From contig NC_087084.1 in assembly GCF_026151205.1 (NCBI RefSeq), positions 9,174,894 through 9,238,893 on the forward strand: a DNA stretch of 64,000 nt, in the 5' to 3' direction. This DNA comes from Bolinopsis microptera. Taxonomy: Eukaryota > Ctenophora > Tentaculata > Lobata > Bolinopsidae. Of this stretch, positions 6,601 to 30,600 are shown piece after piece. Numbering within the stretch: the stretch's first letter is position 1; every line of letters starts with the position of its first letter. Under the pieces are notes generated by a model. That model made no database searches and was not told the origin of the DNA. It worked only from the letters and a program-made list of their open reading frames with translations. A program made the translations under genes and the position numbers.

Positions 6601-9600
6601 GGGGAGGCGGTTCAGATATCATAATTAATGAAGATTATTTAGTCGACCACAGTTATTGGAATTTTTGTCCTCAAAACGATCAGATTGACGATAAAATGAA
6701 CTGAGCTTTTTCAAAGTACGAGTTGGAATGTTAAACTTTTGAGGAGCAATAATAACTGATAACACACACATTCCAGTAGTCATTAAATCAGAGACAGATA
6801 AAATAAGTACTAACCAGTGGCAGGGTTGTAAGTCCCAGCCGGACAGTCAGCTTCAGTAACAGCTCCAGCAGTGCAGTAGTGTCCTACAGTACACAGTCCC
6901 TCCGGGGGGTCTGACCGGGTTGAGCCTGGACTGCACACAAATCCTGTGGAGGTAGGAGTGTTGAAGAAACTGCTGGCTCCGAGTTCAGATTTAGCTTAAT
7001 ATTTGGTAATTCAAGTGGGATTATGCTTTTGGTTCGGAGCTAAATTTTGGTTAATACTGTTGTTAGTTAACGGATAAAACGAAAGACTTTAGAACAATAC
7101 AAAACTGGATTTCTCAACGAAATAAAATACCCGATTGATAAACATAAACATAGCTCTATTCACAGAGAAGACATCCACCAAAACACCTACCTGCGTTACA
7201 GGTTCCAGTTACTTGATCCTGTCCTTCTTTATCACAGAAGGAGCCAGCGGTACAGTTGGCACATGATGCTTCTGAGGTTCCACCTGAACACAGAGAGTGC
7301 TATCTTGTTATTTGTGGATGAAATTTGTATCTAGTTAGAGAACGTATCTGTAACGGTTAAAATAATTTGTTCTTACGCTCATATAAACGGGTTCTTAGTG
7401 GAGAAGTTTTAATTCAGCCGTTCGTTAAATTATTTAAATCAACTCTTGATCTAAGTAAAAATTCAGGCAGATTTTGAAAGGATAAACTAACCCTGGAGGG
7501 CCCTAAAAGTGCCAACAGGACAGAGAGTGGGTTGAGTAGCTCCAGCGATACAGTAACCTCCAGCTGGACACTTGTTAGTGGAGGGGTTTGATACGGTCTG
7601 TTTCTCCGGACACAAGTACCTAGGTACATGGGGTTAGAGTTAGAGTTAGAGGTTGGGTTAGAGGTCTGTTTCTCCAGACACAAGTACCTGGGTACATGGG
7701 GTTAGAGTTAGAGTTAGAGCTTTAGAGGTTGGGTTAGAGTTAGTTTAACAAGTACATGGGTATAGGGAGTTAGAATTAGAGTTGCAAATGAGCGCCTGGG
7801 TAGTGGGTACAGGGAGTTTGGATGTAAATAAGAGAAATAAAGAATACAATTTAATAAATAAATCAACGTAAAATTTAATAAAAAATACACAAACCCAGGA
7901 TCACAGTCTCCAGTAACCTCACTCTTTCCAGAAGAAGAGCAGAACTTGCCAGCAGGACACACTGCACACTGCTCCTCTCTGATCAGCTCTATCTCAGCTC
8001 CTATTGTACCAGCAGGACACGGGTTGTTCTGAAATATCACGTGACTAAGTGGACCAGGTGACGAACCGGGAACTTTGAGATGTTTTAGTTTTGGTTTTGG
8101 TTTTGATTTTGGTTTATAGAGCTGCACGCCACATATGTCCAGGTTCATAATAATATTAATATATAATGTAGGACTTCTAGGCAATGAACTTGGTTGTGGG
8201 ACACACTCAACTAGGGAAGTTGAGAGGCCTCACTTTAAGATGTTACAGAGCTATTCATTCGTATTTACACAACATATAACGTGAACTCTTGAGAGCATAA
8301 ACTATAATGCTACACTCCTAAGATATCACGCTTTCTTTAACGGTACTTCAGTCCCCATCGCGTGACATCACAGTCACACTACATAACGTGACGTCACAAC
8401 CCCTCACGTGACGTCACGATACTCACAGTATGATCAGAAGTGTTAACTGGACAGAAGTAGCCTTTAACACAGGACAAAGCGGTTCCATCTCCAGGACAGT
8501 ACATCCCACCCTTACACTCACCGCACTCTGTCTGCCCCTCTAGTTCCGTGTATGTTCCTGAAAGTAAGACAAATTGGGAGATTAATATAATCGCGAGTGA
8601 TAAACTTTGATATTAAAGATTTTTGGCATCGTCAGTTCTACTCGCAGTAAATTTTAGGTATCCCTGTATTTATGATGTACGACTGAAACCCTCACCGCTC
8701 ACGTGACGTCACAAAAAACACATAAATACCAGGACAATCTCGAAGTATTCTGCAACCAACCTTTCTCACAGGGCTCAGCATTAGGGGACCCCTCTTCGCA
8801 GTAATGTCCTTGAGGACAGATGCTGGCATCGTCTGGACTGGAACCCTGGTAATAATCATCTTAATGTGATGTTATTTAAAAAATATAAATCCGGCCAATA
8901 AATAACTGAAAACTCCATACTTTCCTAAAAAGCAAAATCTTAAAATTAACCAAAACGAGAGCCGATAAGCAATCAGTACAATCAGTACGATCAGTACGAT
9001 CAGTACGATCAGTACGATCCCCCATGTTATTTACCTGGGGACAGTAGTACCCCACTTTACAAGGCACTCCTCCTGTCGATGCAGCTTCACACATCCTACC
9101 TGCCTCGCACTCCGAGCATTGTGACAGTTCTGAAGGAGAGCGGTTTGTTATCACACACATTGAGATTACTAGGCTGTATTCTGCGTATTATAGGAGGGAA
9201 AAACTGTAGAAAATAACCAGCTTAATCTAAGCATGGCATTAAGTAAAACTGACCGGTTGCAGTTTGGAGAGTGTTGTATTTGCCAGCAGGGCACGGAATC
9301 TTGCTACCGGATCCAGCGGTACAGTAGTGCCCTGGACTGCACTTCAGTGCTGTAGCGATAGCACTTCCGGCCGGACAGTAATATCCTGAGGGATGTGGTT
9401 AAGACATCAATTAATAGAAGATATGGAATTACTGTAAGTAGTATATGATGCATTTTTCAATAGCCATTTTGGGAAAAAGTGATGTACAGGTGCTTGGAGT
9501 AACCATATTACGTAATGTTACCGGCGGCGACCTTGTAATTAGTGTGATATCATGTTCCATGTGGAAACTATACTGGATGTAACTTGATTATTACGTCATG

Positions 9601-12600
9601 TTCATTGCTCACGGTACATTTGTGATTTTATCGTGTAACGATCTTACCAGATTAGAGTAAGTCAAAGTGAAGTTATAATGTGTCACAAGCACGCGATCCT
9701 TATCCTATAAATCACTCGAGTGACTCATATTAAAATTTGTAACCCTTATAATCGGTGTAATATTACGTTCCATGTGAAAGCTGTATTGGATGTAACATTA
9801 TTGGATCAATGTGACCCAAAAATTTGTTAACATCACAATTTGTATAGATCACCCCGGTGTTATTAGATCATAATGTTTTCAAGTGATCACCTGAACAATT
9901 ATCGTACCCCACATGATCAGGATACCTCTAAAATATCAGACATTATATGTTGCTACGTAGGTCCACGTGAAAATGTTGCCCCTCATTCCACTGGTCCCAC
10001 CCACATCAATTAGAGCAGCCAGGTGTTAGATCATACTGTTTCTAAGAAACTCGACAGCGTTTCTGCCAGCCAACCGAGGTTATATACAAGTTACCGCTAC
10101 AGCCGCATTCATTTCTCATTTGTTCGTTTTATCATTTGTTGACTATTGACACTGATTAGAATATATTCCTGCGTTCCTTTGCTTTTTTTTGTGTATAGAA
10201 ATGTGGAACAAACTTATTTGCTGGTTATTCGGCAAATGGTTAATCATTTTTATGCTTTCTGTCCTGATACACCCTGAAGTTCTTGATGAAGTGGCTGGGC
10301 CGTCTAATATTGACACCGCTATCCCGAGAAAAAGGAGGAAATTGGTGGCATCTTGTAGGAACTGTGGATTTCTGGCTGACCACGAGGTACATTTTACAAT
10401 TTTTTGAAAGAGTATAAGCACGAATCTTACAATAATAAAGAAAACTAAATTTTATTAGCGCCAGGCTTTAATAGATACAATCACATTCAAATACATCTGA
10501 TTACGTTTTTAAAAACTATCAACTTATAACTTTATAAAACTCATAGTTAAATACTGACAAAATATCAGGATGAACTTGAAAGTCACCAGTGTACTGAAGA
10601 ATTGAGAGAATCTCAAGATCCCTCAACTACAGAATCTCAAGAACCCTCCTCTGAAGGAAAAGATCAACAGAACGCTGAGGATGAAACGTTAAAACCTAAG
10701 GTATTTTTATTCAAAACGATTTTATAATACAAATTCTTAAATATTTTCTCTGATAAATGAAACGTGGTGTTCATGAAATATCCCGTTATGTTATGAGATT
10801 TTTGTTTCGTATTACCAGTCGTTCCTTTCAGAACTGACATAAAAAGATTAAATGTAAAGACTGTGGGTCAGTAATGTGGGCTGATAACTTGAAAAGGCAT
10901 GCCAACAAATGTAAAATTCGGTGTCAAGATTGTGGAAAGCGAGTGCCTCAGGGTGAATTTAAGGACCATAAGGAGATTCATGAATGGAACCTTAGAAACA
11001 GTTTCCCGGAGTCATCCGCCTCCTCATCACAAAATGTAGATGACGAAGATTTAGACCAGGGTGAATTTAACGACATCTATGAAGAGTACGATCAATTCAT
11101 TAAGACAGCAAGCAAATTTGGTCGAATAATGGATACATTCAATTTCAAAATGGATCAATTTTCACCAAATGAACTCATTTATCGGTTCAAGGCGATCTTC
11201 AAAGCACAGAGAAATTCGTTTAAAATCAAAATTTCAATTGGAGCTATCCTCTTTAACAAAACCACAGAGGAGTATGCCTTTTACAAAAGCTCCCAAAACA
11301 ACCAGCTGCTTCTTGATCAACCAGTCCTTATTAGAAATTCCAGTGACAAGGCTAGCTTCATTCGGAAATTAGAAAGTTTGGATCTGATTGCAGCGATATC
11401 CAGACCCAACAGTCAATGGACCATTGCTAAAGTCACAAATGCTACATTTTTTGTCTACAAGCTCACAGGAACTCCTATTGGGTCACCAGTTGAACTTCCA
11501 GCACATCTTGCTAACAACAAAGGTTTGATAAGTTTAACTAAAAGGAAGGGAAAGGCTTACAACGACAAGTTGTGTTTCTTCCGAAGTCTTAGTCTTCACA
11601 TGGGGCTACCGCTTGATGGACTGGAAGGGAAAGCAAAAGAGCTGAAAAACTTGTTTTGTGAAAAAGCTTCCATAAAGGAGTTTGAAGGTGTCACCTTGGA
11701 TCAACTAGAGGAAATATCACGCATCTTCAAAGTAGCAATAAACGTTTATGAACAGGATGAAAAGAGGAGCACAGATTTGATATTTAGAACCATAACGGAG
11801 TCTGACAATCCTCTGAACCTTAACCTGTACGGCGAGCACTTTTCTTTTATCAAGAACTTAGCCATTTACTCACAGTCCTATAGGTGTTCAAAGTGTGACA
11901 AGATATGGTCTAGCTCGGGGAACTTCCATAGACATGTTCGAAATTGTGAAGCAGGTGTTAAACACAAATACGGCACCGGTACATTTGAGCTCCGACCCAC
12001 TGTTTTTGAGGCTCTTGAGGAGGAGGGAGTGTTCGTGCCACTGGAACTTCGGCCTTTTCCATTCATGGCCACTTATGACATTGAATGTATGTTGAAGAAG
12101 GAAGTAGATATCAAAGACACAGCCAAAATAAACTATACGTCTAAACATGAGCTTGCGTCTGTTTCAGTGTGTAGTAATGTACCTGGATTTACTTCTCCGA
12201 AGTGTTTCATCTTGCCTTGTGAGGGAGGTCAAAAGCAGCTTGTGAAGAAGTTTGTTGATTACCTCATGAACATCAGTGAGACTTCATCCGCAATTCTACG
12301 TGAAAGGTACTCGAAGTATCTTGATCAGATAAGTTCAGAGAGGACACTTCAAAGATTTGAGGAGCATATTACACAGTTGCCTGTGCTATCGTTTAACGGT
12401 GCCAGTTATGATTTGAGAATATTAAAAGAGTTTATTATCCCTGTTATCATTGATCTAGACTCACTTAAGTTTGTCATAAAGAAAAGTACAAGTTACATGG
12501 CAATAGTAACTGAAGAGCTGCGTTTTCTTGATGTAATGTATTACATTGCACCTTCGTTTAACTATTCTCAGTTCCTTCACGCCTACGGTGCTAACGCTCA

Positions 12601-15600
12601 GAAGGGTTTCTTTCCATATGATTGGTTTAATGACTTGAAGAAGCTTGAGTCAGATCACTTCCCATCTTACCAGGACTTTTACTCTTCATTAAAAGGATCC
12701 AACACACTTCAACCCACTGCGACGGAAATGTTGGGTGCAGATGAAGTTAACCTTATAGGAAGAAAACCGTCGAAAGGTACCCCACTTACATCCGACGAAA
12801 TGTTCAAATTCTCTCAGCAGAGATATGAGACAGTAAGCAACATGTTCTACGAAAACAAATGGACTATGAAGGATTATTTAATCCATTATAACAATGCAGA
12901 TGTCAAACCATTTTTAAGTGCTCTAAAGAGTATGTCTAAGTACTACATCGAACGAGGTGTTGACGCTTTCAAAGACGGATTTTCAGGTAACTAATAAAAT
13001 CAAAAGATAGGTATTTAAACTGTAAAATAGGTACTGTAAATTATAAAAAAATTATGAATTAATAATATCATATTATAACGACACGGTGAAGTTCTTGGAG
13101 CAAATTATGAATTGAATTATTTTACTGTTGCGAACGTAAAATATACATTTTATAATGTTTTCGGTTTCAGTTCCTGGAATTGCAGAGAGGCTTGCGTTCA
13201 AAACTTTGAAACCTGATGAAAATTTTCTCCTATTCAATAAAAGGAACGCAGATCTGGTAGAACTTTTCAGAGGAAATAATGTTGGTGGCCCTGCCATCAT
13301 TTTCGATAGATATCAGGAAGCAGGTGAGTGAAAATGAAAATGATAACGTTTACGTTTAGACATACGGAAGTAATTGAAATAATATTAAATTTGATAACTT
13401 GATCTAGAAATAGTTAACTAATGATATATATTCTTGAACAGGTGTCACAAATATCAGACATAGCAACGAAGGAAAGCAGTGTAGGAGAATCTTGGGCTAT
13501 GATGCAAACGCACTGTACCTCTGTAAGTGAACTTGTATTTCGTTTCCCCCCCCCCCCTTTTTCTTGCAGAGAATTGTGTCAAATTTTCTAAGTTAATCAA
13601 GTCTAAAAAAAGCTATTATTGATGTGGAATAAAAATTATTAGGGTGTATGCAGCAACAAATGCCATGTGGTATGTTTCTTCGAAGAAAACGGGAGGATCT
13701 TTTCGAGAAGAAATATCCAAAGCCTCATTCTGCTGCGTGCAGTGAATGGATGGGTTATCTTGAAACAACACGAGGGATTGATATACAACATGCACGCAAT
13801 GGGACTGAATTTAGAGTAGGGAGCAGAAAAATACCGGTGGATGGTTATTCCAGGTTTTACATTAAATAATATAAGTCTTTGTTTCATTTCGATACCCAAT
13901 TTGTCTAATCGTTGTCAATTATAAACTCTCAGCGTCATTCCTCACGAATTTTTAATTTTGTCTTTTCAGAGAATCAAAGACTGTATTTCAATTCCACGGA
14001 TGTTTCTTCCATGGGTGTCTTTCCTGTTTTAAGTCTCCACAACACGACCGTGAAGAATCTCGTAACGGTTGGAGATCCTTTGACGATCGCTATAAGACCA
14101 CTGGAGAGGTATCTGACTACATTACTGATGAGGGATATCGATTAGAGGTGATTTGGGAGTGTGAATGGAAAGATCAGAAGAAAACTGTTGAATTCAAAAA
14201 CAAATACTTGTATCCGGGAGAGTCGAGTGTTTACATGAGAGAGTCCCAGATACTAGCTATGGTGATGGACGGTAGCATGTTTGGTGTAGTTGAAGTGGAT
14301 ATTGAGGTTCCGGAAGAATTGAAAGATCATTTCACAGAGATGACGCCAATATTCAAAAACACGACCATATCCTTATCAGACATTGGAATTTACATGACGG
14401 ATCATCTGACTCAATCCAAACAGAATTTCCGAGATCGGAGATGTTTAATTGGATCTATGTTTGGGACCAAAATTCTCTTGATAACTCCACTCCTGATTTG
14501 GTATGTAAAGCATGGCCTCAAAGTGACAAAGATATATCAGGTCATCCAATTCGATCCGAAGGAGTGCTTCAAACGATTCGGAGATCAAGTGTCTGACGAC
14601 CGAAGAGCTGGTGAGTGTAATTACACTTAGAATTTAATAAAGTGTTAAAATAATTATAAACTTTATAATGAACGGTGAACTCTTTAACTCCTTGAGAACT
14701 TTTGTTTTAGATAAAACAATTCAGGTGACGCTGACATCAGTAAAAAGATCATTGGTGATACATCAAAGCTTATAGGTTTGAATATTACCTTTTATTTTAA
14801 CATTTATTGGCGAATTTTAGCGAATTAATAGAAAATAAATCCGTGACAACTATCCTACCACTTTCGTAGGTAACAGTGTGTATGGACATTCGATCATGGA
14901 CAAATCGAAGCACACTGCGGTCAAGTTTTGTGGAATCGAAAAAGCGTCAAAAGCTATCAACGATCCCTTCTTCAGTTCATTTGAGGAGTGTGGTGAAGAA
15001 ACATTCGAGGTATTTTTTTTAATAGTAAGAAATAGTAAGAAATAGCAAGAAATAGTAAGAAATAGTAAGAAATAGTAAGAAATAATAAGAAATTAACGTA
15101 TTAATTTCATATCAGAAATTTAAGATATGAGATTGTTAGCTCTCAAAGTTTGAAACATGTAATATCTTATTACAGATAACGCTGAAAAAGAAGTCTATCA
15201 AACACGACCTACCGATCCAGTTAGGCTTCTTCGTATATCAGTATGCTAAGATGCGAATGCTTAGCTTTTACTACGATGTTGTTGATCGATTCGTTGACAG
15301 ACAAGACTACTGTGTTTTAGAGATGGATACAGGTTTAATTTTAACAGACATAGCCTGACTCATTGTGAGATTATTGGAAATTGAATCTAAAATAGGTCTA
15401 ATATATCTACATAGGATATTAAAATGTCAAATCTCAAACTATCCTCAGACAGTTTGTATCTTGCCGTCAGTGGAATGGATTTAGACAGTGTCGTAAAACC
15501 TGAAATGACACAAGAATGGGAGGAAGCTAAAAAGGAGTGGTTTCCACGGATTGACAGCAAATCCAATGCAGCATACGATCTAAGGACCCCAGGTAACAGA

Positions 15601-18600
15601 GTGACACAATTATTTAAAGTTATATTTATATTACTCAAGGACATGGACAATTATTGTGATAAGAGACGTCGTCTTCAGTTTGTTGTACCAAATTCTATTT
15701 CAGGATTGTTCAAGATGGAATGGGAAGGTGACGGGTTTGTCGGCTTGGCTGCCAAAACTTATTACTGCTTCCATAAGGTTAATAATCTGTAATATGGTTA
15801 CTTCAAGCACCTGTACATCACTTTTTCCCAAAATGGCTATTGAAAAATGCATCATATACTACTACTGTATTATATGGCCGATATCTCATCAGGAGCAAAA
15901 TTAGAACGAAGAAAAAAAAACAAGAATTTATGAAACCCCTTAAATCCACTGTTGTATACTGAGTATTATAAAAGAAACTTGAACGTTAAGAGAAGACAAG
16001 AACCTGCAGTACAGGAGCCATCGACAGTACCATCATTGCCCACCTCACAATAACTACCAGCAGTGCAGTCCTTTGGTTCGGAGGTACCTGCCGGACACAT
16101 CTTACCGGCCGGACACACTCCTGTAGGGAGACAGAGGGTGAATGGAGGGATAAAGAGGTGTAAAAAACAGTTGCTGTTTTTGGGAATGTAATGTAATTCA
16201 AATTAGTGTCTACAAACTCATGTAGAGTCTGTATAAAAGAATGGATAATATTCTGAAACTTTAACTGATCGAACAGTCCTCCTTGAGCCTCAAGCCGACT
16301 TAACCTGATGAATTCAGAATTCATGTAAAATGTAATAAACACATACCCCCAATAGCGTTGTCATCACCCTCACAGTTACAAGCTCCCCCACTATCAGGAC
16401 AGGGCCGCGGAGTGTGAGACCCGGTAAGACAGTAGAACCCTGCCTCACAGTCTCCCTTGGGTTGTACTGAACCCTCTGTAATAAGGTGGTACGGTTAAGA
16501 GAAATGTGGTAAAATGTGGAGATATTTAGTAAAATGTGTTAAAATGTGTTAAAATGTGTTAAAATGTGGTAAAATGTGGTGAATTGTGGAGAATTAAGGA
16601 GTAAACTAAGACACATTGTGGTGAAATGAGGCTGGTTTAATGTTATCCTTGTTTCTTACAGTTGATTTGCACAGCTCAGTGAATCTTATCAAGAAAAATA
16701 CAAGCAGTAAACTTTTTATCTAAGTTAAGTAAAAATATCGTGAAAATGAATTGTAAGTTAATTTAGAAGGTTTTGAAAAGTCACGTACCTAATAAAGTTA
16801 CAAGATTTAAAAGTCACGTACCTAGACAGTACTGACCCGCTTCACATGGGCTACAGCTTTCTATTGAGGAGGCTTCCAATTTTTGGTTGAACTTCCCTTT
16901 TGGACACGGAGTTGGGTTGATTGAGCCTTCCGGGCAGTATTTACCGGCCTGTAGTTGGAGTTTTAGTGAGTGTTTACTTCCGGGCAGTATTTACCGGCCT
17001 GTAGCTGGAGTTTTAGTAAGTGTTTACTTCCGGGCAGTATTAACCTGCCTGTAGTTGGAGTTTTAGTGAGTGTTTACTTCCGGGCAGTATTTACCGGCCT
17101 GTAGTTGGAGTTTTAGTGAGTGTTTACTTCCGGGCAGTATTTGCCTGCCTGTAGTTGGAGTTTTAGTTAAGTGTTTACTTCCGGGCAGTATTTACCTGCC
17201 TGTAGTTGGAGTTTTGGGTGAGTGTTTACTTCCGGGCAGTATTTACCTGCCTGTAGTTGGAGTTTTGGGTAAGTGTTTACTTCCGGGCAGTATTTACCTG
17301 CCTGTAGTTGGAGTTTTAGTGAGTGTTTACTTCCGGGCAGTATTTACCTGCCTGTAGTTGGAGTTTTAGTGAGTGTTTACTTCCGGGCAGTATTTACCTG
17401 CCTGTAGTTGGAGTTTTGGGTAAGTGTTTACTTCCGGGCAGTATTTACCTGCCTGTAGTTGGAGATTTGGGTGAGTGTTTACTTCCGGGCAGTATTTACC
17501 TGCCTGTAGTTGGAGTTTTGGGTGAGTGTTTACTTCCGGGCAGTATTTACCTGCCTGTAGTTGGAGGTTGAGTGAGTGTTTACTTCCGGGCAGTATTTAC
17601 CTGCCTGTAGTTGGAGTTTTGGGTAAGTGTTTACTTCCGGGCAGTATTTACCTGCCTGTATTTGGAGTTTTGGGTGAGTGTTTACTTCCGGGCAGTATTT
17701 ACCTGCCTGTAGTTGGAGTTTAAGTAAGTGTTTACTTCCGGGCAGTATTTACCTGCCTGTAGTTGGAGTTTTGGGTGAGTGTTTACTTCCAGGCAGTATT
17801 TACCTGCCTGTAGTTGGAGTTTTAGTGAGTGTTTACTTCCGGGCAGTATTTACCTGCCTGTAGTTGGAGTTTTAGTGAGTGTTTACTTCCGGGCAGTATT
17901 TACCTGCCTGTAGTTGGAGTTTTGGGTAAGTGTTTACTTCCGGGCAGTATTTACCTGCCTGTAGTTGGAGTTTTGGGTGAGTGTTTACTTCCGGGCAGTA
18001 TTTACCTGCCTGTAGTTGGAGTTTTGGGTAAGTGTTTACTTCCGGGCAGTATTTACCTGCCTGTAGTTGGAGTTTTGGGTGAGTGTTTACTTCCGGGCAG
18101 TATTTACCGGCCTGTAGTTGGAGTTTTAGTGAGTGTTTACTTCCGGGCAGTATTTGCCTGCCTGTAGTTGGAGTTTTAGTTAAGTGTTTACTTCCGGGCA
18201 GTATTTACCTGCCTGTAGTTGGAGTTTTGGGTGAGTGTTTACTTCCGGGCAGTATTTACCTGCCTGTAGTTGGAGTTTTGGGTAAGTGTTTACTTCCGGG
18301 CAGTATTTACCTGCCTGTAGTTGGAGTTTTAGTGAGTGTTTACTTCCGGGCAGTATTTACCTGCCTGTAGTTGGAGTTTTAGTGAGTGTTTACTTCCGGG
18401 CAGTATTTACCTGCCTGTAGTTGGAGTTTTGGGTAAGTGTTTACTTCCGGGCAGTATTTACCTGCCTGTAGTTGGAGATTTGGGTGAGTGTTTACTTCCG
18501 GGCAGTATTTACCTGCCTGTAGTTGGAGTTTTGGGTGAGTGTTTACTTCCGGGCAGTATTTACCTGCCTGTAGTTGGAGGTTGAGTGAGTGTTTACTTCC

Positions 18601-21600
18601 GGGCAGTATTTACCTGCCTGTAGTTGGAGTTTTGGGTAAGTGTTTACTTCCGGGCAGTATTTACCTGCCTGTATTTGGAGTTTTGGGTGAGTGTTTACTT
18701 CCGGGCAGTATTTACCTGCCTGTAGTTGGAGTTTAAGTAAGTGTTTACTTCCGGGCAGTATTTACCTGCCTGTAGTTGGAGTTTTGGGTGAGTGTTTACT
18801 TCCGGGCAGTATTTACCGGCCTGTAGTTGGAGTTTTAGTGAGTGTTTACTTCCGGGCAGTATTTGCCTGCCTGTAGTTGGAGTTTTAGTTAAGTGTTTAC
18901 TTCCGGGCAGTATTTACCTGCCTGTAGTTGGAGTTTTGGGTGAGTGTTTACTTCCGGGCAGTATTTACCTGCCTGTAGTTGGAGTTTTGGGTAAGTGTTT
19001 ACTTCCGGGCAGTATTTACCTGCCTGTAGTTGGAGTTTTAGTGAGTGTTTACTTCCGGGCAGTATTTACCTGCCTGTAGTTGGAGTTTTAGTGAGTGTTT
19101 ACTTCCGGGCAGTATTTACCTGCCTGTAGTTGGAGTTTTGGGTAAGTGTTTACTTCCGGGCAGTATTTACCTGCCTGTAGTTGGAGATTTGGGTGAGTGT
19201 TTACTTCCGGGCAGTATTTACCTGCCTGTAGTTGGAGTTTTGGGTGAGTGTTTACTTCCGGGCAGTATTTACCTGCCTGTAGTTGGAGGTTGAGTGAGTG
19301 TTTACTTCCGGGCAGTATTTACCTGCCTGTAGTTGGAGTTTTGGGTAAGTGTTTACTTCCGGGCAGTATTTACCTGCCTGTATTTGGAGTTTTGGGTGAG
19401 TGTTTACTTCCGGGCAGTATTTACCTGCCTGTAGTTGGAGTTTAAGTAAGTGTTTACTTCCGGGCAGTATTTACCTGCCTGTAGTTGGAGTTTTGGGTGA
19501 GTGTTTACTTCCAGGCAGTATTTACCTGCCTGTAGTTGGAGTTTTAGTGAGTGTTTACTTCCGGGCAGTATTTACCTGCCTGTAGTTGGAGTTTTAGTGA
19601 GTGTTTACTTCCGGGCAGTATTTACCTGCCTGTAGTTGGAGTTTTGGGTAAGTGTTTACTTCCGGGCAGTATTTACCTGCCTGTAGTTGGAGTTTTGGGT
19701 GAGTGTTTACTTCCGGGCAGTATTTACCTGCCTGTAGTTGGAGTTTTGGGTAAGTGTTTACTTCCGGGCAGTATTTACCTGCCTGTAGTTGGAGTTTTGG
19801 GTGAGTGTTTACTTCCGGGCAGTATTTACCGGCCTGTAGTTGGAGTTTTAGTGAGTGTTTACTTCCGGGCAGTATTTGCCTGCCTGTAGTTGGAGTTTTA
19901 GTTAAGTGTTTACTTCCGGGCAGTATTTACCTGCCTGTAGTTGGAGTTTTGGGTGAGTGTTTACTTCCGGGCAGTATTTACCTGCCTGTAGTTGGAGTTT
20001 TGGGTAAGTGTTTACTTCCGGGCAGTATTTACCTGCCTGTAGTTGGAGTTTTAGTGAGTGTTTACTTCCGGGCAGTATTTACCGGCCTGTAATTGGAGTT
20101 TTAGTGAGTGTTTACTTCCGGGCAGTATTTACCTGCCTGTAGTTGGAGTTTTAGTGAGTGTTTACTTCCGGGCAGTATTTACCGGCCTGTAGTTGGAGTT
20201 TTAGTGAGTGTTTACTTCCGGGCAGTATTTACCTGCCTGTAGTTGGAGTTTTGGGGGAGTGTTTAATTTTCAATGCTAAGAGTGCAAGTGGCTAGGACTT
20301 TTAAGTTTTAGCAAAACCATATGAAATGTTTTTATGTATTTTCATCCTGATAAATGTTACCTTGCATTTTGTTAATATTGAATGGAAATTTGTATCCTAA
20401 AACGAATTGCGCCTTACCATTTGTAGATTATACAACATTTGTAGATTATCCTGTGCTCACCGTGACTAGTAAATCACCACTACTGCACAGTCAGTCTTGG
20501 TGTTATGTATATAATCACAGGTTATATGTCGTTATTACTGGTATTTCATACTGATAGTTGATACGTCAGACCACGTCACCTTATCCCTAAAATACCTACT
20601 CTATCGAGGTCGCGGCTCTGCAGCAGTAAGCATAAAGTATAAACTATAAACTACTCAAAAACCGAAATTCATAATTCCAGGAATACGATCATGTGATAGT
20701 ATACACATGAAAGTATCGGTACTAAAATCAAACTTTGTAACTAATATTTTACTGGTATGTTAATTGTTAGGTATTTGGCCAGGTACCTACTCAAAAACCG
20801 AAATTCATAATTCCAGGAATGAGGAATAAAATCATGTGACAGTACATAATTTGTAAAGTCAAAATGTTAACTCAAATAGTCGGATTACAGATAATGTGCT
20901 CATGGGTGCTCATTGCTCAATGACATGTTTAGACAACACTACAACACTTTTCAATTAACTCGCTCTCAACTCACAATTTGTTGGATCGTTGTTTTTGTTA
21001 AACATTATGTTCCTGAAAGTGGTTATGCTAGCTACACTCTTCAATATTGGAGGTATTTATTTGAAACCAGTTTACGTTTATAATTCTAATTTTCAATAAG
21101 AGTTTAATGCAACAAAACGATGCAGTAATTAGAGTGTCTCCTGCTGTACAATTAGAGTGTATCCTGCTGAAGTGTCGTGCATTAGAATTTAGAAAACGTG
21201 CAAGAATGAATGTCACAGGTTTGATCATTTCAGAGTCCAGGTTTCAATTGGTAAACAGCGTTGGACGCCCTATAACGTATTCATCACAAGCACTACTACT
21301 GTATAACGGTGGTACCGTTTGCGATGATTCGTTTAGTGATAACTCCGCGAGTGCCATATGCAAACTGATGGGGTTTAGCTATGCTAGTAGTTGGACACAC
21401 GGGAGCATTTGGACATCTCTTCAGAACAGTTATCATATTACGCTTGATGATGTAATCTGCTCCTCATCAAACTGGCTTTCTTGCATTTACCGGGATACAG
21501 CTGAGGATTGTGGCCATCACGAAGACGTGTTTCTAAGATGCGCAGGTACAGGTTCTTCTGTATGGTGTCCACCAGGACAATATCTCCGCTCAAGAACACA

Positions 21601-24600
21601 GTGCACACTGTGCCCCTCCAATACGTACAAAGCTCACGGAGGATCGGAGAGTTCCTGCTTATCTTGTCCTGGATCCTCCACCTTAACTGCTGGTTCAACT
21701 TCCTGCTCTTGCTCAGGTGGGCAATACTGGAGCGACACCCAATGTGTGAGCTGTCCTCAAGGCATGGCCAGTCTAGAAGGATCGCTGCAATGCCAAGCCT
21801 GTCCATCAGATTCCGCTGCATTAAATAGTGGGACCTCGTGCAGCTGCTCACCTGGGATGATATGGAGCTGGGATGGAGAAACATTGAGTTTGTGCAAAGA
21901 CTGTCCCTCTGAGACTTACAAGGATGAAGGAATGCTGACCTGCACCGCTTGCCCGTTGAGAACTACATCTTCAGCAGGATCTACTCATTGCTCTTGCCAA
22001 GCAGGGATGTACTGGAGTGGAGAAGGATGTCTGCATTGCACCCAGGGCTCGGTAAGTCAAGAGGCCGCCCTTCAATGTCAGGAGTGTCCAGCGGGATTTA
22101 CGTCTTTACAAGGAGAGATCTCTTGTGGCTGCCCACCAGGATCAATATGGAGTTGGGATGTAAAGACCTGGGGTTCCTGTAAAGACTGTCCCCCTGGGAC
22201 TTACAAAGATGAAGAAATGCTGACCTGCACCGCTTGCCCACTGAACACAACATCCCTTAAAGGTTCTGGATACTGTTCTTGCCATGAAGGGATGCACTGG
22301 AACAAAACCCGTTGTGAGAACTGCGCCCAAGGTACGGTCAGCCAAAACGGGGCATTTCGGTGTCTAGAATGTCCAATAGGATCCCTTCCATTAGAAAACG
22401 AGACCACCTGCAGCTGTGAAGTTGGAATGGTATGGAGCTGGGACGGAGAAACATTGGGCTCCTGTAAAGACTGTCCCCCTAGGACTTACAAAGATGAAGA
22501 GATGCTGACCTGCACCGCTTGCCCACTGAACACAACATCCCTAAAAGGTTCTGGATACTGTTCTTGCCATGAAGGGATGCACTGGAACAAAACCCGTTGT
22601 GAGAATTGCACCCAAGGTACGGTCAGCCAAAACGGGGCACTTCAGTGTCTAGAATGTCCAGTAGGATCCCTTTCATTAGAAAATGAGACCACCTGCAGCT
22701 GTGAAGTTGGAATGGTATGGAGCTGGGACGGAGAAACATTGGGCTCCTGTAAAGACTGTCCCCCTAGGACTTACAAAGATGAAGAAATGCTGACCTGCAC
22801 CGCTTGCCCACTGAACACAACATCCCTTAAAGGTTCTGGATACTGTTCTTGCCATGAAGGGATGCACTGGAACAAACCCCGTTGTGAGAAGTGCACCCAA
22901 GGTACAGTCAGCCAAAACGGGGCGCTTCGGTGTCTAGAATGTCCAATAGGATCCCTTTCATTAGAAAATGAGACCACCTGCAGCTGTGAAGTTGGAATGG
23001 TATGGAGCTGGGACGGAGAAACATTGGGTTCCTGTAAAGACTGTCCCCCTGGGACTTACAAAGATGAAGAAATGCTGACCTGCACCGCTTGCCCACTGAA
23101 CACAACATCCCTAAAAGGTTCTGGATACTGTTCTTGCCATGAAGGGATGCACTGGAACAAAACCCGTTGTGAGAATTGCACCCAAGGTACGGTCAGCCAA
23201 AACGGGGCACTTCAGTGTCTAGAATGTCCAGTAGGATCCCTTTCATTAGAAAATGAGACCACCTGCAGCTGTGAAGTTGGAATGGTATGGAGCTGGGACG
23301 GAGAAACATTGGGCTCCTGTAAAGACTGTCCCCCTAGGACTTACAAAGATGAAGAAATGCTGACCTGCACCGCTTGCCCACTGAACACAACATCCCTTAA
23401 AGGTTCTGGATACTGTTCTTGCCATGAAGGGATGCACTGGAACAAACCCCGTTGTCACGTTGTGAGAAGTGCACCCAAGGTACAGTCAGCCAAAACGGGG
23501 CGCTTCGGTGTCTAGAATGTCCAATAGGATCCCTTTCATTAGAAAATGAGACCACCTGCAGCTGTGAAGTTGGAATGGTATGGAGCTGGGACGGAGAAAC
23601 ATTGGGTTCCTGTAAAGACTGTCCCCCTGGGACTTACAAAGATGAAGAAATGCTTACCTGCACCGCTTGCCCACTGAACACAACATCCCTAAAAGGTTCT
23701 GGATACTGTTCTTGCCATGAAGGGATGCACTGGAACAAAACCCGTTGTGAGAATTGCACCCAAGGCTCAGTAAGTCTCGAAGGTGCCCTTCAGTGTCAGG
23801 AGTGTCCATCCGGATCCACAGCATTAAACAACGCATCATCCTGCAGCTGCCCGATAGGACAGATATGGAAGTGGGATGGGGATACGAACAGCTCCTGCAC
23901 GCCATGCCAAAGAGATACTTATAAAGGAGAGTCTATGGCAACATGTGCTGCGTGCCCTGCATTCTCATCCTCAGATCCTGGCTCTGAAAAATGTAAGTGC
24001 ATTGCTGGCATGTTCTGGAACAGTACCCGATGTCAAGAATGCACCAACAGCTCCGTCAGCCAGGAACGTTCCCTAAGTTGTGCAACATGCCCTGCTGGCT
24101 ACCCACCCATAGAAAGAGGAAGGGAATGTAATTGTCCAGAAGGTGTGATTTGGAAATGGAACGGGACTCACCACGGTTTTTGCCAGCCATGTCCTCCTGG
24201 CACCTACAAGAATGAAAATATGTCGTCCTGCACAGTTTGTCCAGAAGGTACGACATCTCTCGCAAAGTCTCATTACTGCCAATGTAATGCCGGGATGTAC
24301 TGGAATCAGTCAAGCTGTTACAGTTGCAGCCTAGGTTCTGTCAGTCCACCAGGGTCACAAGAATGCCAGCTTTGTCGTCAAGGAACATCTGCTGATCCCG
24401 GGAGATCATCCTGCAGCTGCCCTAAATGGAGATCATGGAACTGGAGTGAAGGGGGTGTTGGGTCTTGTCTGTCTATTCCAAAAGATCTTCTCTTAGTGCC
24501 GGTACTAGCTTGTACCACAGGGCTCCTGATGGTAGTCTCTACTGCTCTGGGCTTGCTGTTCTGCTGTGAGAGGAAGAAGGGAAAGAAAGAAGATAAGGGA

Positions 24601-27600
24601 CTTGGGAAGGTTGCATATAATGCTTCAAGTGGAGTGCACCTGGGTGAAGAGGAGGGGAGTTCTCCTACTACAGATGACAAATCTGACAACATTTACGAGA
24701 ACTATGAAACTTAACGGTAAATATTCTTTGAAAATTTGGCAATACTTCAAGCACATTTCATTTGCCACGCAGCCACGCTATCTGTATCACTATATTTTTG
24801 AAATTTATCTTTGACACTCCTTTACCTATTAGTATTACACGGTACACCAATAACCATTAACCATCTTCATTCTACAACCTCAGGTGAACCTTACAAGACG
24901 AGAAGTACAGCAGTGACGTTTCTCCCGCTTGATAGCAGCACTGCAAAAACTTAAAAAGTTATTTCGTTTTGAAGTTTGGACTAACTGATCTTTATATGTA
25001 TTAAGCTGCAGACAAGTTTGTCTGAAAGAATAATTTAAGTTCAAGTACTAATTTTAAAGTGTATTTTTGATAAATGATTGAATTTTTTAGAGACCACAAT
25101 ATGTTGTGAAATTTTGATACTTATTACTTTAAATATTTGTATTCTTCTTGCAGGAATATTCACCTTGGAACTGTTAAGGACCGCAAAATCTTTAGAAATT
25201 TGTTAAAAGTTATTTGGTTTTGAAGTTTGAACTAACTGATCTTTATATGTATTAAGCTGCAGACAAGTTTGTCTGAAAGAATAATTTAAGTTCAAGTACT
25301 AATTTTAAAGTGTATTTTTGATAAATGATTGAATTTTTTAGAGACCACAATATGTTGTGAAATTTTGATACTTATTACTTTAAATATTTGTATTCTTCTT
25401 GCAGGAATATTCACCTTGGAACTGTTAAGGACCGCAAAATCTTTAGAAATTTGTTAAAAGTTATTTGGTTTTGAAGTTTGGACTAACTAATCTCTAAGCC
25501 GCAGACAGAATTATCAAATTTAAAGTTTATTAATTGTAGTGTATTTTTGACAAATTATTGAACCTTTTTAAAGACCACATGTTGCGAACTTTTCATACAT
25601 GGTGTTAATTTACTTTTTTACTTTTGTTTTATTTCGAAGTTTAACTGCTTAAAATTTAAGAAATAAGTCGTCCTGGTCTTTTTTATTCAATATTTTGAAA
25701 GTAGGATTATTTCATCATCAGTGCATTTATACGACAATCACAGTAAACATCGAGAATACCAACAGACTGTAGCAATAAAGCAATAAGTACACCTTACCTC
25801 ACACTGTTTGATGGTAACACTGCTGGTACCAGAAGTTTGACAGAACATACCAGCAGTACAGGGTTTACAAACTGCAGCTCCGGGGGCGTCTGTGAACATT
25901 CCCGCCGCGCACTCCTTCATGGCTTCCGATCCTGGGGGATGGGGCTAGTTACCATAGTTACTGTGAGTTAGTTAGATCAAAAATCAATAGTTCCCACAGT
26001 CAGACAACGAAAGTCAAACTCTCAAAAAGGGGATGGGCTAGTTACTGCGGCTGGTGAAGGAGTTGATTGTTAGAGCTCTGGCTTTAGATCATCGTAAAAT
26101 ATGTAAAATCAATCTAACCTTCTTTACATCAAGTTCTGTAAAGCTAATTTTGCCTCGCATAGTTCATCTTTAACATAGTTAATCTATATTACTACGTAAA
26201 AATTCCATACGTCATCTACTTTATCATCTACATCTCTACATATGATAAGAACTACAAACCCTGAGGACAGTAAAAGCCTTGCTCGCACTCCCCTACATCT
26301 ACATAATATCTACAACTCTACATATGATAAGAACTACAAACCCTGAGGACAGTAAAAGCCCTGCTCGCACTCCCCTCCCATACTCTCCTCATCAGGGGTA
26401 GATGAGGTTGAGCCCTCTTTGCAGTAGTAACCCTCACTACACGGCCCACTTACTTCTGTTAGACCCTGTGATGAGACAAGTGTAATAGTGAGAAGTAGCT
26501 ATATAGGGAGTGTTTAGTATAATAGACAATACGGACAATACAGTTCCCACGGACAATATATTTCACACGGACAATACAGTTCACACGGACAATACAGTTC
26601 ACACGGACAATACAGTTCACACAGACAATACAGTTCACACGGACAATACAGTTCACACGGACAATATATTTCACAAGGTTAATCTTGGTCGACAATGTTA
26701 TAAAATTTTATCAATGATGAATATTTTCAAAATGTTTGAGTTCAAAGTCTTTCAAAAATCATTCGATTCAAATTTTACAACGTAATGAATAATACATAAG
26801 AAAAAAATATATATATATAAGAAAATGATAAGGTATCGACACTCTGTTCACGTGACTTACAGGATCCTTGCAATAGCTTCCAGCAGTACATATTGTACAA
26901 TTATTAACATCGCTCAATCCTGTGGTTCCTCCGAAGTAACCTATGGAGTTTAAAGGTTAGAGCCAAAGGATAAATTAAGTTTTAAAGATAAATAAATATT
27001 CGAGTGTTGGCGAAACGTTAAAAGCATGCTGAACAAATAATTATCACTGATTATATGGGCGATTTGAAAGTTTGCTAATCACAACCACGTGACCTAACCA
27101 CGTGACACAGTCACAATTACCCCTAAATCTCTATAAAAACAACGCACCAGCAGGACACTGAAGAGTGGCCTGGTAAGTGCCCGCAGGACAGTAATACCCT
27201 TGTCTGCAATCCTCTGGGACACCGGTCTCACATTGTTTACCAGCCGGACATTCTTCACATTCCTCTGACGCTTCCACGCTGGGGAAGGAGGGGCGGTTAG
27301 CAGGTTAGTGGTGGAATCTTAGGAACCATGTCATGTGGGAGGGAGGGGTGGTTAGCAGGTTAGTGGTGGAATCTTAGGAACCATGCCATGTGGGAGGGAG
27401 GGGTGGTTAGCAGGTTAGTGGTGGAATCTTAGGAACCATGTCATGTGGGAGGGAGGGGTGGTTAGCAGGTTAGTGGTGGAATCTTAGGAACCATGTCATG
27501 TGGGAGGGAGGGGTGGTTAGCAGGTTAGTGGTGGAATCTTAGGAACCATGCCATGTGGGAGGGAGGGGTGGTTAGCAGGTTAGTGGTGGAATCTTAGGAA

Positions 27601-30600
27601 CCATGTCATGTGGGAGGGAGGGGTGGTTAGCAGGTTAGTGGTGGAATCTTAGGAACCATGTCATGTGGGAGGGAGGGGTGGTTAGCAGGTTAGTGGTGGA
27701 ATCTTAGGAACCATGCCATGTGGGAGGGAGGGGTGGTTAGCAGGTTTGTGGTGGAATCTTAGGAACCATGTCATGTTATTGTGTGTAGTTATTGTAGCCT
27801 TTTCATTGAAATAAAATGTGAATATTCATGGTCGCGATGACTGGTACGATTCCTTCAGATTGGCTGTTAAAATCACCCTTAGCTAGATCATTAGCTTTAG
27901 TTCTATCAACCACTTAAACATTTTCAAAAATTAGGAAATACCAAACCAATCGACTTAGAATCCAGCTTCAACAACTGAAAATTAAACTTCTCACAAACTG
28001 AACTATCAGGCAGTCAGACAGAGTTTATCTCTCACCTAAAGGAGCCCTGTTGACATGGTGTCTCCTCGATACTCCCCTCCTCGCAGTAGTACCCTGCTCT
28101 ACAAGGGTGCGCGTTCCCAGTCTGTGGGGAGGTGTTATTAGGTGTGGGAAGAGGTGTTGTGGTGTTGTTTTAATTGTTTAGTTTTTTACTTGCTGTGGGA
28201 ATATTGAGCGATTTTTTAATTTTGGGATCATGTATTGTTTAGTGAGAAATTGATTAATTTAGTCAAAATCTATGTTTTGAAGATGTCAATTCTCTAATTA
28301 GGAAGATATGATTAATCATCCTTTAAATAAATAATAACCGCTCCAAATCCTCACAAAAACTACTGAAAAATACATACAGCAGATCCAGCCGGACAGTAGT
28401 AGCCCTTAGGACAGGTCACACTCTGACCCTCAGCCTGGGGATCCACAGTACCAGGATTAGGACAGTACATTCCTCCTGGACACTGGAGACAGTCTGACAC
28501 ATCATCCTAGACAGGTGGAGATATTGTTAGGGGTAGTGATATTAATTCAGTAGTAGTTGTGTCCTAGACAGGTGGAGATATTGTTAGGGGTAGTGATATT
28601 AATTCAATAGTAGTTGTGTCCTAGACAGGTGGAGATATTGTTAGGGGTAGTGATATTAATTCAGTAGTAGTTGAGTTCTGTTGGATTAAGCATTTCACAA
28701 GATTATTAACAGTTATCAAAAAAGGTTACATCAAAGTTTAGAATATTGAAAAGAAATGTAATAAAGCACTAAAGATCGCACACAAATCTCACCTGGAGAG
28801 TCTTCTTGTTGTATCTACCAGCGGGACACTTATCAGGGTGGTGAGTTCCCTCCCCACAGTAGGAACCTGCCGGACACTCATTTCCGGCGGGTTTACTCTC
28901 CGGAGATGCTTCCGGACAGAAGTAACCAGGTGAGCAAGGACCCGTGAAGGTGATTCCACCTCCTGATCGGGAGGGGGAGGTTAGAGGCAAATGGGTTATT
29001 TTGAGAATTCTTTAAAACAAGGATTTGTTTTGTTCACTATACGTGCAGATTCTTAGGATAAAGTTGCGATTCTATCAACAAAAAGACTCACATCACTCAC
29101 ATCACTCACATCACTCACATCACTCACATCACTCACATCACTCACATCACTCACATACCTGCACAGAACTTGCCACTAGGGCACTTCTGACACTGTTCTT
29201 TAGCAGCTAGACCTGTACTGCTACTGTAGTAGCCCGGTTCGCAGGGCAACTCAGTTGTTGTACCTGATGATTTACACAGGATTACACAGGATTAAAATTA
29301 AATTATAGGTCCACTATCGTGAACCGTCATAATTGTTTACAGAATAAAATATTGAAAACATTCATCTGATGATGATCATGGACTATGATTATTTGGAGAC
29401 AAACTTGAAAGTTTTTCCGTATGAAAGTCGACATTTTTTGCGGTAAAGCCTACGATGAAGATTGAAAACGCAAGTATCGAATAATCAACCAATTATTGGT
29501 ATAAGTTTTATAAGACAAACCTTCAGGACAGTAGTGTCCAGCTTTACATTCAGCTGGTGCAGCCTCGTGAGACCCAGCATCACAGTAGTATCCTGAGAGA
29601 AAGGGCGTTTGAATATCTACTGATTGATGGGTCGTTTGATAATAAGACAATGGCAAACCGATGGTTAAGTATCGTCTTTTAAAGTTAATACTGATTTTGA
29701 TAAACCATAAAAAGTTGAATTGAACTGGAACGTGTATCTTATTTCAAGAATGTAGGGAATGTTCTGACCAGCAGTGCAATCGAGGAATGTTTCACCGTCA
29801 TGGCCCGGTTCCGGACAGTACTTTCCAGCCGGGCATTTGAAACAGGAATCTGCGTCAGATCCTCCTTCTACATCTCTGTACGTCCCACGTGGACATTCCT
29901 CCGCAGCCTACGGAGGAAACATTCAAAAAATGCTTCTTGTGATTTTAGAACGATAAAAATGCAGCTTTGTAATTTTTCATTATTCTGTAACAATAACATG
30001 AACATTTCCTTGTGTTTTACCAACCGAGGCAGCGAGACAGAAGTGGCCGACAGGGCACGGTGCAGTAGCCGCAATACCGGTACCGTCCCCACTGACACAA
30101 GTCTTTCCGGCTGGACAATCTTTACACGATGCCGATCCTGGGACAAGGTTTAAATCCTCCTTAAAGTTGCAGATATCTTTGTTTGTTCCGTATATTTTTA
30201 ATTTTCCCGGAAAATGATAATTAAACTTGCAAGTAGTATTTTTGATATCTCGTCAGAAAAACAAAATCGGATCCAGCCAACCGGACTTGCAATAGTCGAT
30301 TTGACCGCGGCAGTGGTTAAAACACCAACCTGGTTGGTCCTGATAAGTGTTATCTAGACAGGGAACCTGCTCGGAACTTCCTGCCTCACACTTGTACCCC
30401 GCACTACACTTGTTCTTGTACCCGTCATCACTACCTGGATAACAAGGGGTTCAAACTGGATGACAGGGTGCTTCTTATCTTAGGATCTAAGAAACAAGGC
30501 AATGATACAAACACTGTTTTATCAAAATAACCGAATGACTACAAACCCTTTAATTAATTAATTAACCGTACCTTGTGGGCAAAAGTAATTTCCAGGACAC

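Follow-up and report, generated by a model that had tools for sequence, protein, structure and literature searches.

An intron of a cysteine (Cys)-rich gene in the ctenophore Bolinopsis microptera ends in 66 tandem copies of its own 3' splice junction. The array lies on the minus strand of a 64,000-nucleotide stretch (NCBI RefSeq assembly GCF_026151205.1, contig NC_087084.1, positions 9,174,894 to 9,238,893 of the forward strand; hereafter the window, in which positions are counted from the first letter). It is real and beyond chance. We think it likely that the array is a minisatellite founded on a ~50-bp tandem duplication across the 3' junction, in which the innermost acceptor would be used through exon definition and the 65 others would be silent decoys.

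Anatomy of the array and its host gene

The host gene was modelled as 105 Cys-rich exons on the minus strand of the window without a phase break, yielding 4152 codons with no stop and 11% Cys. The model, a semi-Markov exon chain with the window as its own training set, called 112 exons; five were dropped by rule (no Cys or <30 nt) and two by hand, one a copy inside the 26213–26376 duplication and another near 24.9 kb. The features at the array, the array itself from Tandem Repeats Finder (TRF), unit counts and the unit string and the remainder from the gene model, are as follows.

16822–16948, minus strand: true Cys-rich exon (AGKYCPEGSINPTPC...QYCL), phase 0 in and phase 1 out (the array exon)
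16927–20265, minus strand: the array, a 50/51-bp unit repeated 66 times in tandem
16949–25797, minus strand: intron of 8849 nt in which lie the array and, on the opposite strand, gene-like frames
25798–25931, minus strand: upstream exon, ending GAG/gtaagg (a slash marks a splice border), phase 0

In phase 0, the junction of the upstream exon (25931–25798) with the array exon reads CE/AGKYCPEG. Among the 105 modelled exons the array exon comes 84th in the direction of transcription and 22nd when counting starts at the window's left end; counted in the latter way, the numbers 22 and 7 that a first-pass annotation gave to this exon and to a second array-bearing exon are right. The downstream intron in the model is 346 nt long (16821–16476), and the shortest modelled intron in the gene is 103 nt. 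With flanking sequence added, 200 exons of at least 2 Cys were called over 164 kb, some of which look spurious, and the Cys-rich exon chain spans ~140 kb on one strand (L003–L010, the window and L011). A Pfam search with 659 aa of the gene returned no family at E 0.01, though Ephrin_rec_like scored 154 matches across the genome.

TRF found a single array at 16927–20265, with a period of 51 and 66.0 copies. Each unit is composed of a 28–29-nt intron tail and a 22-nt exon head, the latter corresponding to the first 22 nt of the array exon, whose true acceptor AG is at 16949–16950. The commonest form, read on the minus strand, is TAAACACTCACCCAAAACTCCAACTACAG followed across the junction by GCAGGTAAATACTGCCCGGAAG (14 copies, with one variant equally frequent). 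Sixty-six units bear an acceptor, namely 65 spare ones and the true exon start at 16948, with spacings between successive acceptors of 51 nt in 38 cases and 50 nt in 27. The innermost copy continues directly into exon 16948–16822, so that this phase-consistent exon begins inside the innermost unit and the array is a tandem repeat at an exon-intron boundary. Head-to-tail units of ~10–100 bp with variants define a minisatellite, and this array, at 51 bp × 66 with 14 variants, is one.

The first-pass annotation had described about 65 tandem copies of a 3' splice site derived from an intron-exon junction. The unit count bears out the number, and the exon model and unit anatomy confirm the derivation; the interval it gave, 16822–20258, covers the array and also takes in the exon itself (16822–16948). 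Its statement that every unit has CTACAG is slightly too strong, as the hexamer is exact in 62 of 66 units (ATACAG in three, TTACAG in one). Similarly, the 21-nt segment said to encode AGKYCPE in every unit does so in 63 of 66 (AGKYCLE in two, stop-containing in one), and the GTAAAC said to follow it everywhere is found in 65 of 66, the lone exception being the true exon. Between adjacent units the stretch that starts at this GT and closes with the next AG measures 29 or 30 nt, as had been stated, and set against the 103-nt shortest intron this agrees with the claim that neighboring units could not both be spliced.

The 14 unit variants follow an ordered pattern, which in the sense direction reads ABCDCEFGBFEFECHFIJEKFLECCEFGBFIJEKFLECCEFGBFEFECHFIJEKFLECCEFGBMNB. 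Two blocks, one of 25 units and one of 15, are each present twice. The true exon carries GCCGG where most units carry GCAGG, and the GCCGG form is found in 8 of 66 units (types B, D and N), six of them among the first nine or last four units and two inside repeated blocks; the outermost unit (type A) is GCAGG. Unit order, repeated blocks and the distribution of GCCGG would fit growth by unequal exchange. An assembly error might also have inflated the copy number or created the repeated blocks, given that the blocks recur with identical unit types and that the copy number is known from the assembly alone. The ordered pattern of variants and the similar arrays at other loci argue against this, and we regard it as very unlikely. 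When the unit was searched in the host genome (264.65 Mb, 232 contigs), all 33 of the matches listed fell inside this array; the search skips very common words and scores the best candidates only, so absence elsewhere is not proven. Of two ionotropic glutamate receptor open reading frames of this genome that were searched, the one in L032 had Mnemiopsis ML032222a as its first hit (E 1.2e-61) and the one in L033 had kainate receptors, which leans toward a ctenophore.

Splice signals carried by the units

Signal strength was scored with matrices built from 103 other exons of the gene, both array exons being excluded. The real acceptor of the array exon scores 5.43 (33rd percentile), whereas the 55 of 65 spare acceptors with CTACAG/GCA score 5.83–6.82 and the other ten 5.08–5.43. 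Of the 66 units, 65 have a branch-point-like YTNAY no more than 30 nt upstream of the acceptor; the motif is as close in 57 of the gene's 104 real acceptors and at 29% of random places. On the strength of these acceptor scores and YTNAY frequencies, each unit has the appearance of a full 3' splice site. The suggestion that the units could act as decoy acceptors is sustained, with acceptors that score about equal to the real one and decoys that are probably silent.

Two candidate donors follow most of the acceptors. The first-pass annotation had proposed that the 21-nt segment might serve as a 7-residue microexon, chosen from 65 copies and closed by the GTAAAC behind it. The donor that this would need, GAA/GTAAAC, is present in 65 units and scores 0.39, where the lowest of the 103 other modelled donors scores 2.41 and their median is 5.62. 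In terms of reading frame the proposal fares better: the frame would stay open in 63 choices if one 21-nt segment were included and the rest skipped up to the true exon, albeit via this weak donor, and of 310 choices of a single pseudoexon closed by GTAAAC, 125 are in frame and open. Because GAA/GTAAAC scores below every other modelled donor, and with adjacent units too close at 29–30 nt, we consider the microexon highly improbable.

The second donor, CAG/GTAAAT, had been missed. It lies 4 nt past the acceptor in 53 units and scores 5.62, equal to the median of real donors; the GT at this position is retained in 61 of 65 upstream units. The sequence GGCAG/GTAAAT in these 53 units juxtaposes AG and GT with a donor of median strength, as in a ratchet point of recursive splicing. 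Ratchet points feature a strong pyrimidine tract. The AG/GT of the units has a pyrimidine fraction of 0.53, where real acceptors have a median of 0.65 and 0.53 marks their 25th percentile; the true acceptor of the array exon is also at 0.53. As an acceptor, AGGCAG/GTA falls at the 20–24th percentile.

The GTAAAT donors might accordingly allow the intron to be removed stepwise, or a new intron to be created by pairing with an acceptor at least two units on. Donor strength, the acceptor score and retention of the GT speak for this possibility, and the GT comes from what used to be exon in the upstream copy, the arrangement also described for an intron gain reported from potato (PMC4974935). Distances and frames point the other way. 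Introns from GTAAAT would measure 46–47 nt for a one-unit step and 96–98 nt for a two-unit step, both below the 103-nt shortest modelled intron, although pairing over more units would give longer ones, and of 290 choices of a pseudoexon closed by GTAAAT just 15 are in frame and open. Taken with the lowish pyrimidine content, this makes stepwise removal or intron creation quite unlikely in our estimation.

We also considered whether the units mask themselves by folding. A GGCAG hairpin with CTGCC around the GT has −8.5 kcal/mol in GCAGG units versus −4.8 kcal/mol in the true exon's GCCGG form. Mean acceptor accessibility is 0.33 in the 58 GCAGG units and 0.44 in the eight GCCGG units (median of 104 real acceptors, 0.38), and four units taken together (204 nt) are about as stable when folded as their shuffles (z −0.86; 35 of 200 shuffles matched or bettered them). 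As accessibility differs little and folding is about as good in shuffles, a self-masking hairpin was rejected as the main mechanism.

Reading-frame consequences of acceptor choice

The exon is open to its donor from the exon-proximal acceptor only (1 of 66), and all 65 upstream choices reach a stop first. This property, also missed in the first-pass annotation, can be read in two ways. In one, the spare acceptors would be poison sites: occasional use of an upstream acceptor would bring a premature stop and destruction of the mRNA, and copy number would set the yield of full-length protein. The stops ahead of the exon's donor in 65 of 65 choices, the 55 spare acceptors that outscore the real one and the retention of AG in all 66 units speak for such regulation. 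Against it, the junction arrays described below share no common logic, the 54-bp and 36-bp donor arrays being open at every copy, and the conservation test that might speak for it is biased by anchoring. We hold this regulation to be unlikely. A broader version seems to us just as unlikely: the array as a bank of 65 spare acceptors, 53 of them with a donor 4 nt on, that are walked through or leaked into, so that copy number would tune intron removal or protein yield and genes of this animal, given that junction arrays of 5–66 copies recur at three loci, might gain introns and isoforms by growth of junction minisatellites.

A minisatellite with probably silent decoys

In the other reading, which we favor, the array would have arisen and been neutralized in four steps. 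The unit anatomy suggests that 28–29 nt of intron end and 22 nt of exon start were first duplicated on the intron side. The duplicate would then have grown to 66 copies, a process to which the observed copies and blocks point. Translation shows the innermost acceptor to be the sole one of the 66 to keep the exon open. Finally, exon definition would pair the donor at 16821 with the nearest acceptor across the exon, and the remaining 65 acceptors would be removed with the intron as silent decoys. The intact frame over 105 exons and the presence in the same gene of junction duplications of 2–66 copies support this reading. The array is taken to be tolerated rather than selected, because the frame is broken at the 50-nt spacings, 27 of the 65, and because the spare sites gave no clear sign of selection.

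Exon definition is in keeping with the report that splice sites closest across the exon pair where flanking introns are large, and those closest across the intron where introns are short (PMC9225289). With an upstream intron of 8.8 kb and a downstream one of only 346 nt, this literature is support and not proof. Several points weigh against silent decoys. The short downstream intron (16821–16476) makes exon definition less than certain, and the case for use of the innermost acceptor is drawn from reading frame and published work. The frame test is partly circular, since staying in frame was a condition in building the exon chain. Splicing leakage into the array is plausible, since 55 of 65 spare acceptors outscore the real one and a branch-point-like YTNAY is present in all but one of the 66 units. 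Lastly, the conservation of splice dinucleotides in six of seven arrays, which we read as an effect of anchoring, could reflect weak selection.

Junction arrays elsewhere in the gene and genome

The array is one of several in the gene, a recurrence that the first-pass annotation had recognized for one donor array in the same gene, which is indeed present, and had otherwise missed in gene and genome. The other arrays and duplications at or close to junctions of the gene in the window are:

3816–4792, minus strand: sister donor array, 18 copies × 54 bp, holding the 5' junction AAG/GTACGT of exon 4897–4759, the seventh exon from the window's left end (TRF)
7612–7783, minus strand: 68 bp × 2.5 duplication with the acceptor of the exon starting at 7619
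26213–26376, minus strand: 82 bp × 2 duplication with the donor of the exon ending at 26342
27282–27776, minus strand: 55 bp × 9 array, ending 3.5 nt before the acceptor of exon 27278–27148
28505–28673, minus strand: 57 bp × 3 duplication with the acceptor of the exon starting at 28506
61099–61222, minus strand: 55 bp × 2.3 duplication with the acceptor of the exon starting at 61126

Outside the window, 18 other 10-kb stretches were examined, picked for related exons or as neighbors of such stretches. Five arrays were found there:

L018, on C12: donor array, 70 bp × 21
L022, on C9: donor array, 36 bp × 5
L022, on C9: acceptor array, 64 bp × 11
L022, on C9: acceptor array, 47 bp × 30
L023, on C9, neighbor of L022: donor array, 43 bp × 44

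Counting those of at least five copies, there are seven junction arrays, three at acceptors and four at donors, with 5–66 copies each and spread over three loci. The innermost copy is an open, frame-preserving choice in every one of them, and in four it is the sole open choice (66× in the window, 21× in L018, 44× in L023 and 30× in L022); the exon models behind these counts had been selected for an unbroken frame. The L018 and L023 donor arrays, in which the innermost donor alone is open, have unit lengths that are not multiples of three. All copies are open and in frame in the 54-bp array (18 of 18 donors) and the 36-bp array, as are the two innermost in the 64-bp array.

Some arrays or duplicates stop just short of a junction, ending 3–8 nt before a modelled acceptor (L023:827–1639, L023:2970–3067 and window 27282–27776). 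The last of these repeats the pyrimidine tract, with the AG excluded.

Placement and conservation of junction arrays

We compared the number of arrays of period at least 30 at junctions with that expected under uniform or GC-matched placement. Opposite-strand gene arrays, the GAG repeat, the retroelement and the 10.5–15.8 kb stretch were excluded, exons wholly inside arrays were dropped as spurious, and stretches with <3 confident exons contributed no arrays. Under uniform placement with at least 2.5 copies, junctions held 4 of 5 arrays in the window (0.89 expected, P 0.004) and 5 of 11 outside it (1.40 expected, P 0.007), figures that are biased upward, the window having been picked for its junction array and L023 after the L022 arrays had been seen. 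Other settings gave 4 of 5 for the window with another span (1.28 expected, P 0.016) and, outside the window, 5 of 11 for placement not wholly exonic (1.66 expected, P 0.016) and 5 of 15 for uniform placement with at least 1.8 copies (2.40 expected, P 0.07).

With GC-matched placement and at least 2.5 copies, the counts were 4 of 5 in the window (1.68 expected, P 0.04), 5 of 11 outside it (4.63 expected, P 0.54) and 9 of 18 for all arrays (6.05 expected, P 0.07). In the window, arrays of all periods of at least 7 gave no junction excess (6 of 43 versus 4.9 expected), and in the rest of the giant gene 0 of 3 arrays were at junctions. We do not claim that minisatellites target junctions, as the excess outside the window vanishes under GC-matched placement. 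Most simply, arrays would grow out of GC-richer DNA, found in these genes chiefly in the neighborhood of exons, and a duplicate spanning a junction would do no harm provided the innermost site is used.

The splice dinucleotide is intact at 190 of 195 sites over the seven arrays, a count that leaves out one false anchor beside the window array; one array of 30 sites lost its AG at five. In six arrays at most 2 of 39 neighboring dinucleotides are better conserved than the splice dinucleotide, and in the seventh 33 of 39 are. Because units were anchored on the splice site, which favors the splice dinucleotide, we draw no conclusion on selection of decoy sites.

Other features of the window

The array-bearing intron also holds opposite-strand gene-like frames at 21065–24714 (plus strand). 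Over 452 aa, Pfam assigns them SRCR and ELAPOR1/ephrin-receptor-like Cys-rich repeats, and TRF finds internal repeats of 285 bp × 5.7 at 22146–23765. These frames bear on a possible role of the array as DNA, namely as a regulatory cluster of CCCGGAAGT motifs upstream of them. The motif, which we take to be ETS-like, is formed at the unit joint 63 times, and all 63 of its occurrences in the window (both strands) lie within the array. An opposite-strand open frame begins 0.8 kb past the array, with its first ATG at ~0.94 kb, distances that do not run from a defined gene start. As the motif is a product of the duplication joint itself, such a role seems to us scarcely credible.

Three further intronic elements were noted. 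A non-LTR (long terminal repeat) retroelement at 46065–50962 (plus strand) has a first open reading frame with a zinc knuckle match just below the Pfam cut-off and a second of 977 aa with endonuclease and reverse transcriptase. A GAG-rich repeat of ~1.5 kb with strong purine skew lies at 44071–45564. A 718-aa open frame at 10838–12994 (plus strand) has no Pfam match at E 0.001; judged by eye, we presume a resemblance to the virus-type DNA polymerase of a large transposon, as an unconfirmed candidate.

Comparison with known systems

Near-identical sites beside a real one constitute a natural experiment on how the spliceosome chooses when sequence cannot discriminate. If only the last copy is used, as is probable, the array is a natural test of how cells ignore decoys, and the seven arrays (5–66 copies, three loci) could serve to weigh exon definition, first-AG scanning and co-transcriptional first-come choice against one another in a single animal. 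Junction arrays also resemble an early phase in one route that has been proposed for the origin of introns.

Our search of the literature for arrays of splice sites found nothing closer than the systems below; subscription papers were largely outside it, and absence is not proven. Like the C. elegans repeat CeRep25B, the array is an intronic minisatellite associated with splicing, although CeRep25B is described as a 24-base repeat with short regulatory motifs near alternative exons, whereas here the unit is the splice junction (PMC4039745). The 53 units with adjacent AG/GT inside a long intron recall the recursive-splicing ratchet points reported in Drosophila, from which they differ in standing by the dozen in tandem, in their lowish pyrimidine content and in an intron of 8.8 kb (PMC8605326).

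Two further systems involve tandem duplication at exon-intron boundaries. In human duplicated genes, tandem repeats at exon-intron boundaries, averaging 30 bp × 4, are reported to be able to create introns, with 27 intron modifications having transcript evidence (PMC2812944). Those repeats share with the array a minisatellite at an exon-intron boundary and a possible effect on splicing; the arrays of the gene described here hold 18–66 copies of the whole junction and are known from DNA alone (PMC2812944). In the potato RdRp gene, one duplication across an acceptor junction is reported to have created an intron (PMC4974935). The geometry described there is that of the array, the upstream copy giving a formerly exonic GT and the downstream copy the branch site, tract and AG (PMC4974935). 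The duplicate likewise crosses the junction here, with the GT of those 61 upstream units standing before a downstream acceptor. Potato had one duplication and one new intron, whereas the array has 65 extra copies, from which a new intron would be hypothetical (PMC4974935). Tandem repeats at boundaries and intron gain by tandem duplication make the array known in kind; it is unusual in scale and recurrence.

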